DNA of 64,000 bases from Bacillota bacterium. Lineage in GTDB: Bacteria; Bacillota; Clostridia; Christensenellales; CAG-917. The DNA lies in assembly GCA_023665365.1 (NCBI GenBank), contig JAMPEA010000005.1, forward strand, positions 1-64,000, written 5' to 3'. Below, piece by piece: positions 22,621 to 62,213 of this stretch (position 1 is its first letter; each line of letters opens with the position of its first letter). The position numbers and the translations under genes were made by a program. The notes below the pieces were generated by a model, which was not told the DNA's origin, did not search any database, and saw nothing but the letters and a program-made list of their open reading frames with translations.

Positions 22621-23035
22621 AAAACAAAAGCACAACTTGCGTTGTGCTTCTGGCGCCTGTTGAGGGACTCGAACCCCCGTGAATTAGCGGAACGTGCGAT
22701 TTTAATCGCCTCTTACGTGGAGCGTCCACTTCGAAAGAAGTGTCGGCTTGCTTCGCAAGCGCGGAGGTACTCCGCTCGGGGTAGAGCCCCCTCTTTATAA
22801 AACAAAAGCACAACTTACGTTGTGCCTCTGGCGCCTGTTGAGGGACTCGAACCCCCGTGAATTAGCGGAACGTGCGATTTTAATCGCCTCTTACGTGGAG
22901 CGTCCACTTCGAAAGAAGTGTCGGCTTGCTTCGCAAGCGCGGAGGTACTCCGCTCGGGGTCGAGCCCCCTCTTTGTAAAACAAAAGCACAACTTGCGTTG
23001 TGCCTCTGGCGCCTGTTGAGGGACTCGAACCCCCG
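22621..23035 (-). repeat. 178-bp tandem repeat downstream of tRNA-Asn carrying the tRNA 3' end
   Basis: Two full units (22621-22798, 22799-22976) differ at about four positions, and a third partial unit (22977-23035) runs into the intact tRNA-Asn. Every unit contains the last 29 bases of the tRNA (T arm, 3' acceptor strand, CCA) at 22651, 22829 and 23007. It also has a terminator hairpin GCACAAC-GCAA-GTTGTGC with a T-rich tail. The remainder is a chain of short hairpins, such as GCTTGCGAAGCAAGC, CACTTC/GAAGTG and GCGATT/AATCGC. The period is not a multiple of three, so reading frames through it are not conserved. Confidence 0.9.
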
Positions 23036-23082
23036 ACACTTCGGTTAACAGCCGAATGCTCTACCGACTGAGCTAAACAGGC
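23007..23082 (-). tRNA. tRNA-Asn (GTT)
   Basis: Minus strand: acceptor GCCTGTT pairs with AACAGGC, D arm AGCTCAGTCGGTAGAGC, anticodon loop CTGTTAA with anticodon GTT, T arm GGGGGTTCGAGTCCCTC, and an encoded CCA. It is 76 bases including CCA. A promoter stands 21 bases upstream. Confidence 0.95.
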
Positions 23083-25165: not shown

Positions 25166-25225
25166 TATTAAAAATAAAAAATAATAAATAACTATACGAA
25201 AAATTTTGTTATTTTGGGTGAAAAT

Positions 25226-26326
25226 ATGAAAGTTTTATGTCAAGGAAAAGAACTCAGCGACGCGCTTGCAAAAGTAGTAAAGGCTTTGCCTGTAAAGAGA
25301 AACAATCCCATTCTCGATGGGATTAAAATTTCCGCTTTCGGAGATACCCTCACCTTATTTGCAACCGACCTCGAACTCGCAATAGAAAAAAAGATAAACG
25401 CGCAGGTGCTCATCGAGGGCGAAATCGTCGTGCCAGGCAAGCTGTTTGCGGATTACGCCAAAAAGATTGAGGAGGAGCAAGTCGAGCTTGACGGCACTAC
25501 TACGACGAAGCTCATCATCAGATACCTTGACAGCGAACTTCAAATAAAGTGCATGAGCGCGGACGAATATCCGATGTTCAGAGAAGTAAATACTGAAAGC
25601 TCGTTCGTTATCCTCAAAAAGGAGTTAAAGGACATCATCGGTCGCGTTTTGTTTTCAGTTGCGTCCGACGACGGCCGCCCATCTCTGCGCGGCGTTTGCC
25701 TAAACGTAAAAGAGGACGAAGTGGAGGCTGTTGCGTCCGACGGCTTCCGCCTTGCGACGGCAAAGGCAATCATCAAAAATAACGGCGTTATAGATAAGCT
25801 CGTTGTGCCTACAAAGAGTATAACCGAGCTAAGCCGCCTCATCGACGACGGCGACGACACCGTGACTGTGTTTGTAGAAAAAAATTATATGATGGTGGAT
25901 TTATTCCATACAAAGATTGTCACCCGCCTCATCAGCGAGGAGTTTATAAACTACGAAAAGATTATCCCGACTGTATTTAGCACCGTCGTATCCGTCGATA
26001 AAAAAGTTTTTGAAACCGCAGTAGACAGAGTGTCGCTCATCAACCGTCTCGACAAAAAGGCGTTTGTAAAAATAAATATTATAGAGGACGCTATTTATTT
26101 ACACGCGCACAGCGAGGACGGCGAGATAAACGAAAAGGTTACGACCAAACTCAACGGAAAAGACCTTACTATCGGCTTTAACGCAAAATATCTCATCGAC
26201 TGCTTGCGCGTCATCGACGAGCCGATTATCACCCTCAACTTCAATTCTTCGGGAGCGCCCGGCGTTATCAACGGCGAGAGCGGAAAGTGGCTGTATTTCA
26301 TTCTCCCCCTCCGCGTCGTCGGGTGA
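25226..26326 (+). CDS. dnaN: DNA polymerase III beta subunit (sliding clamp)
   Basis: The ring-shaped processivity clamp of the replicative polymerase. The 366 residues match the family throughout: LSDALAKVVKALPVKRNNPILDGIKI at the start, ASDDGRPSLRGVCLNV and ASDGFRLA in the middle, and a C-terminal PLRVVG. The start is MKVLCQGKE (25226) with GGGTGA before it. Unusually it converges on dnaA instead of following it. Confidence 0.96.
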   Translation: MKVLCQGKELSDALAKVVKALPVKRNNPILDGIKISAFGDTLTLFATDLELAIEKKINAQVLIEGEIVVPGKLFADYAKKIEEEQVELDGTTTTKLIIRYLDSELQIKCMSADEYPMFREVNTESSFVILKKELKDIIGRVLFSVASDDGRPSLRGVCLNVKEDEVEAVASDGFRLATAKAIIKNNGVIDKLVVPTKSITELSRLIDDGDDTVTVFVEKNYMMVDLFHTKIVTRLISEEFINYEKIIPTVFSTVVSVDKKVFETAVDRVSLINRLDKKAFVKINIIEDAIYLHAHSEDGEINEKVTTKLNGKDLTIGFNAKYLIDCLRVIDEPIITLNFNSSGAPGVINGESGKWLYFILPLRVVG

Positions 26327-26450
26327 CACGCTTCGCGTGTTATAAATGAAAGCTAAGCGTTTCTATCAAAGTTTGATAAACAAATAAGCTATCCTTTTTA
26401 TAAAACGACGTTAGAGAGATAGAAACAAAGCTATACATTTTGTTATATTA

Positions 26451-26479
26451 AAAAAACACTGCTTTAAACAGTGTTTTTT
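26451..26479. terminator. Bidirectional terminator between dnaN and dnaA
   Basis: AAAAAACACTG pairs with CAGTGTTTTTT around a 7-base loop, with a T-run on both strands. It separates the convergent dnaN and dnaA transcripts. Confidence 0.75.
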
Positions 26480-26554
26480 ATTTTGTTTCGTTTTAACCTC
26501 TCTATGTGTGTTTAATAGAGAAGTATAGTTTTAGTTTCAATCACACAAAGTGTG

Positions 26555-27925
26555 TTATCTGTTTAGGAGCATATTTTTTATATCGGCAACGGTGATGCGG
26601 ATGCGCGGATTTGACTTTATCTCGTCGGTGATTTTATCGCGCGCGTGGATGATGGTCGTATAATCGCGCCCGCCGAAGATTTCCCCTATCTGCACGAGCG
26701 GCAAAGAAAGCAAATCGGTTATCAGATATATTGCAATCATGCGCGGCTCGACGAGGTTTTTTGTGCGCTTTTTTGAAAATATATCGTCAGTTGTGATTTT
26801 ATAATATTTGCAAACGGACGCGATAATATCGCTTGCGTCGAGAGTTTCCTTTTTTTCCTCTATAAAATCGCTTAGTGCTTCCGACGCGAGTTCGCGCGTA
26901 TTTATGACGTTGTTTGTAAGCGAGCTGAAAAACACGATTTTATTTAGCAAACCTTCGAGCTCGCGGATATTTGAGGTTGCGTTTTCGGCGATAAACTCGG
27001 CGACCTCGTTTGACAAATCGAATTTCATCTGCGCCGCTTTGTTTTTTAGGATTGCGACGCGGGTCTCCATATCGGGGACTTGAATATCCACAGTCAGTCC
27101 CCAGCTGAAACGCGTGCGAAGCCTGTCTTCGAGCGTAGTCAAATCCTTGGGAGAGCGGTCGGACGTGATGATAATCTGCTTGTTTTCGTGATATAGGTCG
27201 TTGAAGATATGGAAGAACGCTTCCTGCGTGGCGTCCTTGCCGATGAGGAACTGAATATCGTCAATCATGAGAACGTCGCAAGAGCGATACTTTTCTCTGA
27301 AACGGTTGTTTTCATCGTTCGATTTATTTCTGATGACCGAGATAAGCTCGGTTACAAGCGTCTCTGCGCTTGCGTACAGCACGTTGAGATGAGGAGACTG
27401 CTTGTATATAAGATTGCCTATCGCGTGCAAAAGGTGGGTTTTGCCAAGACCTACGCCCGAATATATGAATAGAGGATTAAACTTTTTGCCGGGGTCCTCC
27501 GCGACCGTTTTGCAAGCCGCGAGCGCGAACGCGTTAGACTTGCCCTCTACGAAATTTTCAAAACTGTATTTTTCAAGAAAAGGACACTTTTTTTTGTTTT
27601 TTTGCGCGGGCGGTTCTTTTGTGACAAAGCCCTCGTTGTTGATAAATACCGTCTGTTTTTCGAGATACTCGTCGCGCTGACTCGGCAAAATAACGACTAC
27701 GTCGGTTATGGAAGAATTGAGATTTTTTACAACCTCTTTTATAGTATCGAGATACTTGTTGTCTATTGTGCGTTTTGCGTTTGCCGAAATAGTCTCCAAC
27801 ACCATTGCGTTATCGACAAAGCAAACAGGTTTAAGAGTGTCTATCCACACCTCGAAGCTGATTGCTTGTATGGAAATGGATAAACCGTCTTTTGCGTCTT
27901 CCCAAAATTCTTCGATATTTATCAT
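26555..27925 (-). CDS. dnaA: Chromosomal replication initiator DnaA
   Basis: Binds DnaA boxes and opens oriC. The 456 residues show domain I (1-85), a short linker, AAA+ domain III with Walker A GVGLGKTHLL and Walker B VLMIDDIQFL, and the C-terminal box-binding domain with GGRDYTTIIHARDKI. It lies on the minus strand between plus-strand dnaN and recF, an inversion of the classical dnaA-dnaN-recF order. TATAAT ends 8 bases before the ATG and no ribosome-binding site is present, so the transcript is predicted to be nearly leaderless. Confidence 0.97.
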   Translation of the reverse strand: MINIEEFWEDAKDGLSISIQAISFEVWIDTLKPVCFVDNAMVLETISANAKRTIDNKYLDTIKEVVKNLNSSITDVVVILPSQRDEYLEKQTVFINNEGFVTKEPPAQKNKKKCPFLEKYSFENFVEGKSNAFALAACKTVAEDPGKKFNPLFIYSGVGLGKTHLLHAIGNLIYKQSPHLNVLYASAETLVTELISVIRNKSNDENNRFREKYRSCDVLMIDDIQFLIGKDATQEAFFHIFNDLYHENKQIIITSDRSPKDLTTLEDRLRTRFSWGLTVDIQVPDMETRVAILKNKAAQMKFDLSNEVAEFIAENATSNIRELEGLLNKIVFFSSLTNNVINTRELASEALSDFIEEKKETLDASDIIASVCKYYKITTDDIFSKKRTKNLVEPRMIAIYLITDLLSLPLVQIGEIFGGRDYTTIIHARDKITDEIKSNPRIRITVADIKNMLLNR

Positions 27926-27933
27926 AATAAATG

Positions 27934-27961
27934 ATTATAACAAAACGGAAGAATATTTCAA
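27934..27961 (-). promoter_or_regulatory. Promoter of dnaA
   Basis: Minus strand TTGAAA (27956-27961), 16-base spacer, TATAAT (27934-27939), 8 bases before the dnaA ATG. Confidence 0.75.
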
Positions 27962-27996
27962 GCAAAAAACAAAAAAATAAAAAGAACCACAATATA

Positions 27997-28025
27997 TTGA
28001 AAAAAATTTTCCGCTAAGGTATAAT
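27997..28025 (+). promoter_or_regulatory. Promoter of recF
   Basis: TTGAAA (27997-28002), 17-base spacer, TATAAT (28020-28025), 7 bases before the recF ATG. It is divergent from the dnaA promoter; the two -35 boxes are 35 bases apart. Confidence 0.8.
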
Positions 28026-28032
28026 TTGCAGT

Positions 28033-29130
28033 ATGAAAATCCTTTCCGTCGAGCTTTTTGATTTCAGAAACTACAAACACGCCGCCGTAAACTTCACGGA
28101 CGGGCTAAACGTTTTGTACGGAAAAAACGCGAGCGGAAAGACGAATATGCTTGAAAGTATCTATCTTTGCTCGATATTTAAAAGTCCGCGCACAACCAAA
28201 GATAAGGAAATGGTTTTGATAGGCGAAAAGTGCGCAACGGTGTCGCTTGTACTTCAAAAGAAATTCAGGAAGCATGTCATAAACCTGCAAATAGACGAAA
28301 AAGGCAAAAAGCGAGTGCTTGTTGACGGAATTCCGCTAAACAGAGCGGGCGAGCTTTTCGGCGTGCTCGGCGTAGTGTTTTTCTCCCCCGACGAGATGAA
28401 ACTCGTAAAAGAAGCGCCGCAGGAAAGACGCAGGTTTATGGACGTAGGGCTTAGCCAACAGCAACGGGGATATTTTTACTCGCTTCAACGCTACAACAAA
28501 ACGCTCAAACAAAAAAACAATCTGCTCAAAGAATGGCGCGGAAGCCGCAATATAAACGATATGCTCGACGTTTGGGACGCGGGGCTTGCAAAGGAAGGCG
28601 CGCTTTTAATATCCAAACGCCTCGATTACGTGAAAACGCTAAACGACAGCGCAAGCAAGTTTCACACCGCGATAAGCAGCGAAAAGGAAGCTCTTAAACT
28701 ATCCTATGAAAGCTCATTCGATATTGAAAACGACAGCGTAGAAGATATAGAAAAAAAGTTGTACGACAGCATAAAAGCCGCGCGCGAAAAGGATAAAGAA
28801 CTCGGATACAGCACTGTCGGTCCGCACAGAGACGATATAAAAATCGAGATAAACGGCAAGGACAGCAGAAAGTTTGCGTCGCAGGGACAGCAGAGGACCA
28901 TTGCGCTTGCGCTAAAACTCGGCGAGGTCGTCATCTACAAAAACGAGATTGGCGAGCCGCCCGTGCTTTTGCTCGACGACGTGCTGAGCGAGCTTGATTT
29001 GACAAGGCAAAATCTGCTATTGGAGATGACGAAAGGCTTTCAAACTATACTCACCTGCACAGAGTTTAACCTCGATTGCGCAAGCAACAAAATAGAGATA
29101 AGCGACGGCAATGCAAAACAGGGACAATAA
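28033..29130 (+). CDS. recF: DNA replication and repair protein RecF
   Basis: An SMC-like ATPase that loads RecA at gaps with RecO and RecR. The 365 residues have Walker A YGKNASGKTNMLESIYL (from residue 29), the ABC-type signature region FASQGQQRTIALALKLGE and Walker B VLLLDDVLSELD. It is transcribed divergently from dnaA out of a 107-base gap, with a -10 box 7 bases before the ATG and no ribosome-binding site. Confidence 0.96.
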   Translation: MKILSVELFDFRNYKHAAVNFTDGLNVLYGKNASGKTNMLESIYLCSIFKSPRTTKDKEMVLIGEKCATVSLVLQKKFRKHVINLQIDEKGKKRVLVDGIPLNRAGELFGVLGVVFFSPDEMKLVKEAPQERRRFMDVGLSQQQRGYFYSLQRYNKTLKQKNNLLKEWRGSRNINDMLDVWDAGLAKEGALLISKRLDYVKTLNDSASKFHTAISSEKEALKLSYESSFDIENDSVEDIEKKLYDSIKAAREKDKELGYSTVGPHRDDIKIEINGKDSRKFASQGQQRTIALALKLGEVVIYKNEIGEPPVLLLDDVLSELDLTRQNLLLEMTKGFQTILTCTEFNLDCASNKIEISDGNAKQGQ

Positions 29131-59399: not shown

Positions 59400-62213
59400 A
59401 TGGAAAAAGACAAGAAGATTAAAAACGAAGCAGTCGGCATCGTCAACAAAGACGCGCAAGGCAACGTAATAAACGCGGCATTCCCCGTGAGCAAGCGCAC
59501 AAAGAGAGATCAAAGCAAAACGTCGGTCATGTACACGCTTTTGGCGGTGATACTGTACGTGCTCGCGTTTCTGCCGGTCGTGATAGTGCCGGTGGTGCTT
59601 GCCGTCAAGTGCTATATGCTTGCGCCGTACTATTCGCTTTGGCATTTCATAGGCGTGATAGTTTCCATTGTGTTTGCGATTATCTACGCCGTCGTCATAT
59701 TTGCGGTGTCGAGGAAAAAATCCAAGAGCAATATCGCTATGCAGACGGTGAAAGTCGCAATCACGTTCACCTGCCTTACGTCGGTTTTCGCGTTGTTATT
59801 GACCTACGCTTTGCCCGACCTCATCGAAATGGCTACGCAAAACACGCTGTTCGTGGAGGACGTTTACTATAACGCCGAAGCGCAGGCGGAGAAAAATCTC
59901 AAACTGGACCGCGACTTCGTCATGTATAACCTCTTAAACGGCAACCTCAACAACCATAGCAAGGACGACGGAGACTATTCATATACGACGCTTTCAAAAC
60001 GCGAAGAAGGGTCGTCGGGGCAGTATATCAAATATTATAACAGCGAGATTAACACTAATTTCTTGGCGTACAAAAACGGCTATACGCTGTCCTCGTTGCA
60101 AACGAGAGTCCTCGACAAGATGAAAGAGGAACAGCCCAGAAAATACGAGTTATACGAGTTCGTTTACAACACCTACGTTTTAAACGACTTCGACTACGCG
60201 CTTTACAACAATATCGACCGCCGAGCGTTTGCGTTGGCATTGGTCGATTACGAGTATAAGCACGCAAATTACGAGCGTCTGCTCAAAGAGGGCTTCAAAA
60301 ACAAGAAAATCCAACAGATATTCGAGTCCAACTACAACAACTACAACCACGACGGCTATCAGACGTTCGACGACCCGCTGCTCCTCTACGCGCAGATGGA
60401 AGGTCGTCTTACGACTTCCGTCATCGTCCACATTCTGCTCAACGAGGGCTGGACGTACTCGCAGGTCGCTTACGACGAGAACGGCAACATCCAGTATGCC
60501 GACGACGGAAATCTCCTGTTCGAGCAATACAATCCCGAGGCGAGAGATAAGTTTGAGGCGGAACACGGCGTTTACAACTTCAAAGGCACGCTCCTCAACG
60601 CCGACGGAAAGACGTATGAGGAAAGCTACGGCTTCAACTCCGACGGCTGGATGGTCTTTAAAAACGGCGTGGTGAAGCGTCCTATCCAGTGGTCTGTCCT
60701 CGATATGGACGGCAAAAAAATGGATTTGGCAAGCGTCGATATATTCGGAATGCTCAACAATCTGCTCCCGCAAATCGATTTGGATTTGTCGAGTCTGGTC
60801 GCAGGTCTGTTGCCGACGCTCGGCAAGTTGGTTGACTCCGTGGGCGAACTTTTGCAGGACGACTTGCAAGACCTTATCGAATTCGCAACCGGCGGCGCAA
60901 ACCTCAATATCAGCATTTGCATCGACGACGACAATATGCTCGACATAGGGCTTATGCCTATGAATACCATCTACGGGTTCTCGGGCTATGCAAATTCGAC
61001 TTGGGTGCAGTCTAACAACCTGCTTATGGCGGTCATCAATCTCGTCGGCACGAGAAACTGGTTCAGCATATTCGGCGCGGTGGGCGTAGTGCTCGTCATC
61101 GCGGCGGGCATACTGCGCGAGTGCGCAAAGAAAACGCGACTCAGAACAGCCGTCTCCCGCGATAGAATTATCAGAAACAATACCGCTAAACTCATTGCCG
61201 AGGGCGAATACGTCCCCGACGAGAGCGACGAAAACAGTCTCCTCGCAGAGGACTTGACCTTAGCCGACGTCGAGGACATCGAAAACGCTCAGCAACGCAG
61301 AGCAATCAAAGGCAAGGATTTGGGCAATATAAATCTCGACGGCATCGACCTCGACGGGCTTGACCTTGACGGAATAGACCTCTCGGGCATCGACCTTAAC
61401 AACCTCGACGATATAAATATCGATGAGATAAACCTTGACGAAATCAATCTCGACGATATTGACGTTGACGACGTAAATCTCGATGATATTGACCTCGCCG
61501 AGGCGGAGGAAAAACCCAAAAAGAAAAAGGCAAGCAAGAAGAAAAAGTCCGTCGAAAGCGAAAAAGCCGCCGAGCCGTCGGCAAGCGACGGGATAGCCGA
61601 GGAAAATAACGAAATATCCGAAGCTCCGCAAGTTGCCGAAGCGACTGCCGAGCAGGTTACGGCGCAACCCGCAGAACAGCCCGATGAGGCAGAGCCTGCT
61701 CAAACGACCGCACCTGTCGAGAACGTCGAGCCTGTCCAAACGACCGAGCCTGTTCAGAAAACGGAACCCGCCTCAGAGTTAGACGGCGAAAAGACGGAGG
61801 AGGCGACCGCCGAAGCAGAAAGCGAGCCTGCGCCCGTCGCCGAGGAAGCGCACGAAAGCGATGCTCCCGCCGAGCCGATTGTAGAGGCGGAACAGGTCGC
61901 GGAGCAAGTCACGGCGCAACCCGACGCAGAAGAACCCGTCGAGGAAGTTGCTCCTCTCGATGAGGTCGCTCCTGTCGAAGAAGCCGCTCCCGCCGAAGCT
62001 CCCAAAGAGGAAAAGCCCGCCAAGAAAAAGAGGGAAAAGAAAAAGAACAAGAAGAAAGACGACCTTGAAGACCTCGACGATTTGTCCGACCTCGACGGAT
62101 TGGATTTGGATAGCTTGGACGACTTATCCGACCTCTCCGACCTCGACGGCATCGATATAAGCGAACTTCTCGACGACGAGCCGAAATCGAAAAAGAAAAA
62201 ATCCAAAAAATAA
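59400..62213 (+). CDS. Large membrane protein with pentapeptide-like acidic tail, unknown function (2 of 2)
   Basis: Not recognised; same layout as its upstream neighbour. The start is MEKDKKIKNEAVG (59400, 937 aa) with GAGGAGGTG inside the preceding gene's end. N-terminal helices lie near 45-70, 80-107 and 120-142, the ectodomain is about 150-555, and the C-terminal helix is FSIFGAVGVVLVIAAGIL. The tail begins with an array of five-residue steps (IDLDG, LDLDG, IDLSG, IDLNN) near 640-700, then Lys-rich KKKKASKKKKS, a Pro/Ala/Glu-rich stretch, and a second Asp/Leu array at the end. Confidence 0.7.
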   Translation: MEKDKKIKNEAVGIVNKDAQGNVINAAFPVSKRTKRDQSKTSVMYTLLAVILYVLAFLPVVIVPVVLAVKCYMLAPYYSLWHFIGVIVSIVFAIIYAVVIFAVSRKKSKSNIAMQTVKVAITFTCLTSVFALLLTYALPDLIEMATQNTLFVEDVYYNAEAQAEKNLKLDRDFVMYNLLNGNLNNHSKDDGDYSYTTLSKREEGSSGQYIKYYNSEINTNFLAYKNGYTLSSLQTRVLDKMKEEQPRKYELYEFVYNTYVLNDFDYALYNNIDRRAFALALVDYEYKHANYERLLKEGFKNKKIQQIFESNYNNYNHDGYQTFDDPLLLYAQMEGRLTTSVIVHILLNEGWTYSQVAYDENGNIQYADDGNLLFEQYNPEARDKFEAEHGVYNFKGTLLNADGKTYEESYGFNSDGWMVFKNGVVKRPIQWSVLDMDGKKMDLASVDIFGMLNNLLPQIDLDLSSLVAGLLPTLGKLVDSVGELLQDDLQDLIEFATGGANLNISICIDDDNMLDIGLMPMNTIYGFSGYANSTWVQSNNLLMAVINLVGTRNWFSIFGAVGVVLVIAAGILRECAKKTRLRTAVSRDRIIRNNTAKLIAEGEYVPDESDENSLLAEDLTLADVEDIENAQQRRAIKGKDLGNINLDGIDLDGLDLDGIDLSGIDLNNLDDINIDEINLDEINLDDIDVDDVNLDDIDLAEAEEKPKKKKASKKKKSVESEKAAEPSASDGIAEENNEISEAPQVAEATAEQVTAQPAEQPDEAEPAQTTAPVENVEPVQTTEPVQKTEPASELDGEKTEEATAEAESEPAPVAEEAHESDAPAEPIVEAEQVAEQVTAQPDAEEPVEEVAPLDEVAPVEEAAPAEAPKEEKPAKKKREKKKNKKKDDLEDLDDLSDLDGLDLDSLDDLSDLSDLDGIDISELLDDEPKSKKKKSKK

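Follow-up and report, generated by a model that had tools for sequence, protein, structure and literature searches.

What is a tandem repeat doing behind an intact tRNA gene when each of its units ends in a copy of that gene's 3' end? The question was raised by a 64,000-nt stretch of DNA (hereafter the window; contig JAMPEA010000005.1, positions 1 to 64,000) from a 1.59-Mb Clostridia MAG, G000 (assembly GCA_023665365.1), in which a first-pass annotation had described a 178-bp repeat carrying the last 29 bases of tRNA-Asn, together with a partial third unit, as the mark of tRNA-targeting integration. The repeat itself is real: it received by far the top TRF score in the window (positions 22621-23035; period 178, 2.3 copies, 97% matches), its two units agreed at 175 of 178 positions, the 29 bases were exact in both, and a third, partial unit was present as a 30-bp terminator alone. 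The array lies downstream of tRNA-Asn, on the same strand, and is made up of the following features.

23007..23082, minus strand: intact tRNA-Asn(GTT), the founder of the array (ARAGORN; Rfam tRNA, 72 bits).
22829..23006, minus strand: unit 1, 178 bp, consisting of terminator, antisense T-arm, hairpins and tRNA tail (TRF; direct comparison).
22977..23006, minus strand: first copy of the intrinsic terminator, GCACAACGCAAGTTGTGC followed by a T-run (sequence).
22956..22971, minus strand: I1 of unit 1, the T-arm near-complement GAGGGGGCTCGACCCC, which forms the outer stem P1 with the tail copy (folding; antisense score).
22939..22953, minus strand: hairpin H1 of unit 1, 6-bp stem and 3-nt loop (folding, covariation).
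22924..22938, minus strand: hairpin H2 of unit 1, 6-bp stem and 3-nt loop (folding, covariation).
22915..22923, minus strand: I2 of unit 1, the tRNA variable region in antisense, CGACACTTC (antisense score; direct comparison).
22905..22920, minus strand: hairpin H3 of unit 1 (CACTTC..GAAGTG), with the antisense copy as its 5' arm and a 3' arm that matches the tRNA sense strand (folding, covariation).
22874..22887, minus strand: hairpin H4 of unit 1, GCGATTAAAATCGC, inside the core, the counterpart of CTGACGC..GCTATTAC in other cassettes (folding; match to the R2 model described below).
22829..22857, minus strand: end of unit 1, which repeats the final 29 bases of tRNA-Asn in sense orientation (direct comparison).
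22651..22828, minus strand: unit 2, 178 bp, 175/178 the same as unit 1 (direct comparison).
22778..22793, minus strand: I1 of unit 2 (sequence; direct comparison).
22651..22679, minus strand: end of unit 2, which repeats the final 29 bases of tRNA-Asn in sense orientation (direct comparison).
22621..22650, minus strand: third terminator copy, the partial unit, 30 bp, 29/30 identical (direct comparison).

On folding, the antisense T-arm and the tail copy of an Asn unit pair as P1, closing a multi-hairpin structure that holds H1, H2, H3, H4 and the tail. Relative to dinucleotide shuffles, the 178-bp unit had a z of about -3.2 when folded as RNA and about -3.4 when folded as DNA. The segment CCGACACTTC is the exact complement of the variable loop/anticodon stem junction of tRNA-Asn, a length reached in only 4 of 1000 shuffles. 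Open reading frames listed within the units just cross tRNA-tail sequence, and no integrase, cargo or other gene was found inside the units, which are too small to hold a recombinase. Direct comparison of units 1 and 2 indicated that units within the array are concerted. An assembly artefact, raised by the first-pass annotation as a possible source of the repeat, appears unlikely, because the copies bear distinct substitutions and arrays of different copy number occur at other tRNAs and in other assemblies. The array is likely to lie beside a replication origin, since dnaN-, dnaA- and recF-like reading frames (window 25214-29130) adjoin it. Elsewhere in the window, TRF also listed tandem repeats of 15/30 bp (CTCGACG..) at 61335-61501.

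The Asn repeat is not a lone integration scar; it is one of a genome-wide family of non-coding, tRNA-tailored hairpin cassettes. Reading of downstream regions in G000 revealed comparable cassettes behind approximately 12 of its 46 tRNA/tmRNA genes, among them Asn, Lys-CTT, Lys-TTT, Ala-GGC, Pro-CGG, Tyr, Val-CAC, Val-GAC, Arg-ACG, Ser-CGA and tmRNA. Arrays comprised 1 to 3 units, varying in whole-unit steps (e.g. three units of 174 bp at Lys-CTT), with partial units at array ends. A variant cassette was found at Leu-CAG and a decayed remnant in the tRNA-Ala(TGC)-tRNA-Ile spacer. One full cassette follows ssrA at G000:C54:82318-82463 (L131, L197), on the same contig as the window but past its end, with a partial second one behind it, so the host genes of the family include tmRNA. 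Tailoring was assessed using a two-part antisense score that was compared with 100 shuffles per locus and ranked over the 46 tRNA/tmRNA genes. At 11 loci the score was 15-22, a value equalled by none of the 100 shuffles, and the locus's own tRNA ranked first or second of 46; for tRNAs lacking a cassette the score was ≤12. The long cassette of Lys-TTT, plain in the sequence, was missed by the score because its antisense part sits further downstream. These antisense tRNA segments, the downstream same-strand orientation and the recurrence after many tRNAs were all absent from the first-pass annotation.

The order of parts, as seen in about 25 cassettes, is tRNA, terminator, I1, H1, H2, I2, a short loop, the 5' part of the sense T-stem, CTGACGC, H4, GCTATTACGG, H5, CTA and the sense tail, where I1 is the antisense of the T-stem 3' strand and acceptor, I2 is the antisense of the T-stem 5' strand, and the tail starts in the T-loop (CGANTC...CCA). 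Put differently, an inverted copy of the T-arm region is split by H1 and H2, and a sense copy after it is split by the core (CTGACGC...GCTATTACGG...CTACGA) with H4 and H5, for up to five covarying hairpins per cassette. The break falls inside the T-loop in most cassettes; at tRNA-Lys(CTT) of G000, for example, T-loop positions 57 and 58 flank the split in the antisense copy, and the sense copy runs from position 56 (our own numbering). In Asn-type units the split lies closer to the variable loop, and the general model R2 still matches them weakly (E about 0.001). Cassettes stand on the same strand as the host tRNA or tmRNA, downstream of it, mostly in 1-4 whole copies, and this fixed part order holds across several genera and ~20 tRNA/tmRNA species. 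Among 14 aligned cassettes, the core columns TGACGC, GCTATTACG and CTAC were invariant (14/14), paired cells amounted to 83.9% (63.9 +/- 1.9 in shuffles; 33-43% when slid), and double changes numbered 56 versus 20 in shuffles, with H4 pairing at 100%. Asn-type units followed the same covariation trend. The sequences of H1 and H2 are not conserved, though the hairpins covary.

Distribution was examined using a covariance model of the Asn units (R1) and a general cassette model (R2). R1 recovered more copies after tRNA-Lys, with antisense and tail specific to tRNA-Lys. Within the family, R2 matched >150 times, in 24 of 43 genomes spanning four genera, with up to 17 matches per genome. Across 396 genomes of the order, R1 and the core pattern placed cassettes in this family only (core-pattern matches outside it look like chance coding sequence and were rejected), and across 391 genomes of the class R2 matched G000 only. 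In a scan of 84,980 species, true cassettes were confined to uncultured Clostridia or unnamed MAGs, many of rabbit-gut origin, and one contig binned as Acetatifactor (L136, rabbit gut; cassettes after tRNA-Lys), which represents either misbinning or transfer. A same-strand tRNA or tmRNA lay ≤1 kb upstream of 60 of the 84 distinct cassettes, representing ~20 tRNA/tmRNA species; the others were mostly near contig starts, and most of them still end in a tRNA tail. The tRNA-Asn genes of 30 relatives were also compared: many have downstream tail copies and a similar hairpin order with different sequences, several are on contigs that end at or just past the gene, and three (in G002, G018 and G027) are followed by no cassette, at a divergence too great for an exact junction. 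Phages, plasmids and viral contigs yielded no match; 50 relaxed-pattern matches in viral contigs were not cassettes by the covariance model.

These results bear directly on the proposal of tRNA-targeting integration. The part of it that stands is the duplication of the tRNA 3' end. Plain duplication of attachment sites does not explain antisense and sense copies tailored at ~20 tRNA/tmRNA species, and that the cassettes are footprints of a conventional element (phage, satellite or ICE), i.e. attachment sites left behind, is very unlikely given gene-less units, the lack of matches in mobile-element sequences and custom antisense at many tRNAs. The recombinase complement of the carriers points the same way. 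A search for integrases, recommended by the annotation, covered up to 15 genomes; no tyrosine integrase, Y1 transposase or serine recombinase proved to be dedicated to the cassettes or to track them. G004, with six cassettes, has one tyrosine recombinase only, which is XerS-like, and neither a Y1 transposase nor a serine recombinase; PF00589 proteins numbered one each in G004, G033 and G036. The proteins classified, from G004 and G000, were XerS-like, below NCBI cut-offs and far below the integron-integrase cut-off, and this kind of protein was present in 15 of 15 genomes searched. Y1 transposases were absent from most carriers searched. Neither a circle nor an exact empty site or junction was observed. 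Real integrative elements do seem to be present at three loci (L113, L116 and L127), where the upstream tRNA is missing and a truncated tail stands in its place. There, conventional elements integrated in tRNA-Ser, tRNA-Tyr and an Ala/tmRNA-like tail probably reach their far end, and they appear to have displaced the cassettes from their tRNA.

Core likeness was 0.77 at the same tRNA across species, 0.70 at different tRNAs of one genome and 0.68 at different tRNAs across genomes. Because cores are closer at the same tRNA than within a genome, the cassettes seem to be inherited mostly vertically with the tRNA locus, movement between loci being rare; frequent jumping among the tRNAs of one genome is unsupported by these values.

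If the folded structure is what matters, it could matter as DNA or as RNA, and the composition of its pairs is informative. In 65 non-redundant cassettes (241 local hairpins), we counted 1368 Watson-Crick and 32 G-U pairs, i.e. 2.3% G-U. At the same loci, G-U made up 7.4% of pairs in tRNA stems (Fisher p 9e-13) and 7.0% in terminators (p 2e-6); the value for shuffled cassettes was 12.4%. RNA-level constraint would tolerate G-U pairs, whereas DNA-level constraint, or correction of palindromes by template switching, would not. The structure is constrained, and probably so as DNA, with the scarcity of G-U pairs pointing to folded DNA over RNA as an indication from pair statistics rather than as proof.

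A processed RNA is nevertheless a serious rival, albeit one we consider on the unlikely side. Terminator readthrough or operon co-transcription would yield a structured RNA of about 120-150 nt of the type annotated for E. coli rtT, whose antisense T-arm or tail would act on tRNA metabolism or stress signalling; a similar RNA role was reportedly proposed for rtT in older literature. The design shared with that annotated small RNA, the strong covariation and the fixed orientation relative to the tRNA are all consistent with such a product, as are the cassettes in the tRNA-Ala/tRNA-Ile spacer of G007, which sit without terminators in an operon and are probably transcribed. However, most cassettes sit behind a terminator, G-U pairs occur at a third of their frequency in the tRNAs and terminators of the same loci, the H1 and H2 sequences are unconserved, and the Rfam RtT model does not match.

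The near absence of G-U pairs would also be expected if the cassettes were a functionless by-product, in which the inverted T-arm copies arise, and the hairpins are perfected, by fold-back template switching at tRNA genes, with unequal crossing-over between tails multiplying the units. The match customised to each tRNA, the partial units at array ends and the concerted units within an array fit this account, yet it does not readily accommodate the invariant core columns, a part order fixed over several genera and ~20 tRNA/tmRNA species, or confinement to parts of one bacterial family, and we regard it as improbable.

Our preferred reading, held tentatively and at somewhat less than an even chance, is that the cassettes are locus-bound recombination sites made of folded DNA, which expand and contract via their tRNA tails. 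A unit would act as single-stranded or cruciform DNA in which P1 and H3 together rebuild a double-stranded T-arm, i.e. the two half-sites used by tRNA-specific recombinases, and the hairpins bulge out where crossover takes place, much as in a folded integron attC site. Recombination between sites or tails, whether homologous or catalysed by a recombinase, either the host's own (XerS-like) or a visiting one, would add or drop whole units, and the tRNA would stay intact because each unit supplies its own tail and usually its own terminator. Cassettes would mostly pass down with the tRNA locus, and new loci would seldom be gained. We favor folded DNA because antisense tailoring, covariation, G-U scarcity, linkage to tRNA/tmRNA genes and whole-unit copy change all count for it. 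Weighing against it are the lack of a tracking recombinase and of any circle, empty site or junction, the rarity of movement between loci, the fact that perfect palindromes can arise by template switching without function, and the probable transcription of the G007 spacer cassettes. If true, the folded-site model would show tRNA genes carrying arrays that grow and shrink without breakage of the tRNA, and would explain why several assemblies break right after tRNAs in these genomes.

Among known systems, REP/MITE-type palindromic repeats resemble the cassettes in being short, non-coding, rich in hairpins and multi-copy. The cassettes differ in being bound to tRNA/tmRNA 3' ends and tailored to each tRNA, with no Y1 transposase in most carriers searched. 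Several other elements were also seen. A type B cassette (core GGCGTGATAGCGCAGGCAACG, outer stem GAGGGACTCG/CGAGTCCCTC), with the tail logic of the main type and a different interior, occurs at tRNA-Asn of other species (L013, L010, L011, L012, L014, L016) and at tRNA-Leu CAG (L192). Long inverted repeats (..TTTCTCGTTACTCCGCGCAAAAGATTG..CAATCTTTTGC..) characterise a separate MITE-like element, which lies at terminators after tRNA tails (L096, L240, L013, L004, L008), and REP-like palindromes (GGGGTCCCCGC..GGGGTAA), scattered and tandem, lie beside cassettes at L012, L015, L016 and L036. The last of these loci (G030:C13) has a 558-bp tRNA-Asn unit with an inverted-repeat insert at the H4 position; AAGGAGG precedes a short reading frame in it (about 58 aa) that is no recombinase candidate.

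The sites of tRNA-targeting integrative elements (phage/ICE attL/attR) share with the cassettes the duplicated tRNA 3' end and, for most cassettes, the break in the T-loop, but the cassettes lack an integrase or cargo and add an antisense copy, many tRNAs per genome and tandem arrays. Integron attC sites are similar in that inverted half-sites pair into a stem that leaves central bases looped out and carries variable hairpins (in the cassettes, P1/H3 and the covarying H1, H2, H4 and H5), and in that arrays of units stand behind one fixed site. Unlike attC, the cassettes have no RYYYAAC/GTTRRRY boxes, no genes and no integron integrase (G004, G033 and G036 have one PF00589 protein each), and their outer-stem sequences follow the T-arm of each tRNA. 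It is conceivable, if rather doubtful, that the whole constitutes an integron-like system in which tRNA/tmRNA genes are the fixed sites, the cassettes are gene-less with single-stranded folded T-arm sites, a host XerS-like recombinase acts on them, and rtT is a distant or convergent example.

The rtT repeats of E. coli (RtT, RF00391; rttR b4425; tyrT/tyrV) came to light decades ago and are not known to have an accepted function. Searches of the open-access literature for rtT-like cassettes found nothing relevant, and also did not return the classic rtT papers. The first-pass annotation had likened the array to 178-bp repeats with a tRNA 3' end at E. coli tyrT, and the tyrV units are indeed 178 bp, each with a 19-nt tRNA tail; the likeness is one of design. 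The shared period is chance, as the annotation had allowed, since family cassettes repeat at 134, 148, 166, 174, 178, 182, 186 bp and more. Like the cassettes, rtT forms tandem units downstream of a tRNA with an exact 3' tail (19 nt versus 29 nt in Asn units), an outer stem in which antisense T-stem and tail pair (in tyrV, GGGGAAGGAT; 2/1000 shuffles), a sense left half of the T-arm (AAGGTTCGA; 18/1000 shuffles) and internal hairpins. Both change copy number by whole units: the rtT region measures 1101, about 923, about 748 or about 570 bp across E. coli strains, in steps of about 178 bp. rtT differs in having neither the H1/H2 pair, I2 nor the CTGACGC..GCTATTACGG core, and in being known at one tRNA locus in E. 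coli compared with ~12 cassette loci in G000. The models do not cross. R2 misses rtT, and the Rfam RtT model, which scores four E. coli copies at 133-138 bits, found no match in the window region at E<=1, in 13 cassette loci at E<=0.1, or at gathering in L001, L229 and L240-L242; a wider Rfam search of the Asn and other cassette loci returned only tRNA and unrelated families. rtT is the closest known relative in design, homology in sequence not being demonstrated. With an rtT-like design replayed at ~20 tRNA/tmRNA species within one family, these genomes offer comparative material for distinguishing DNA from RNA function.
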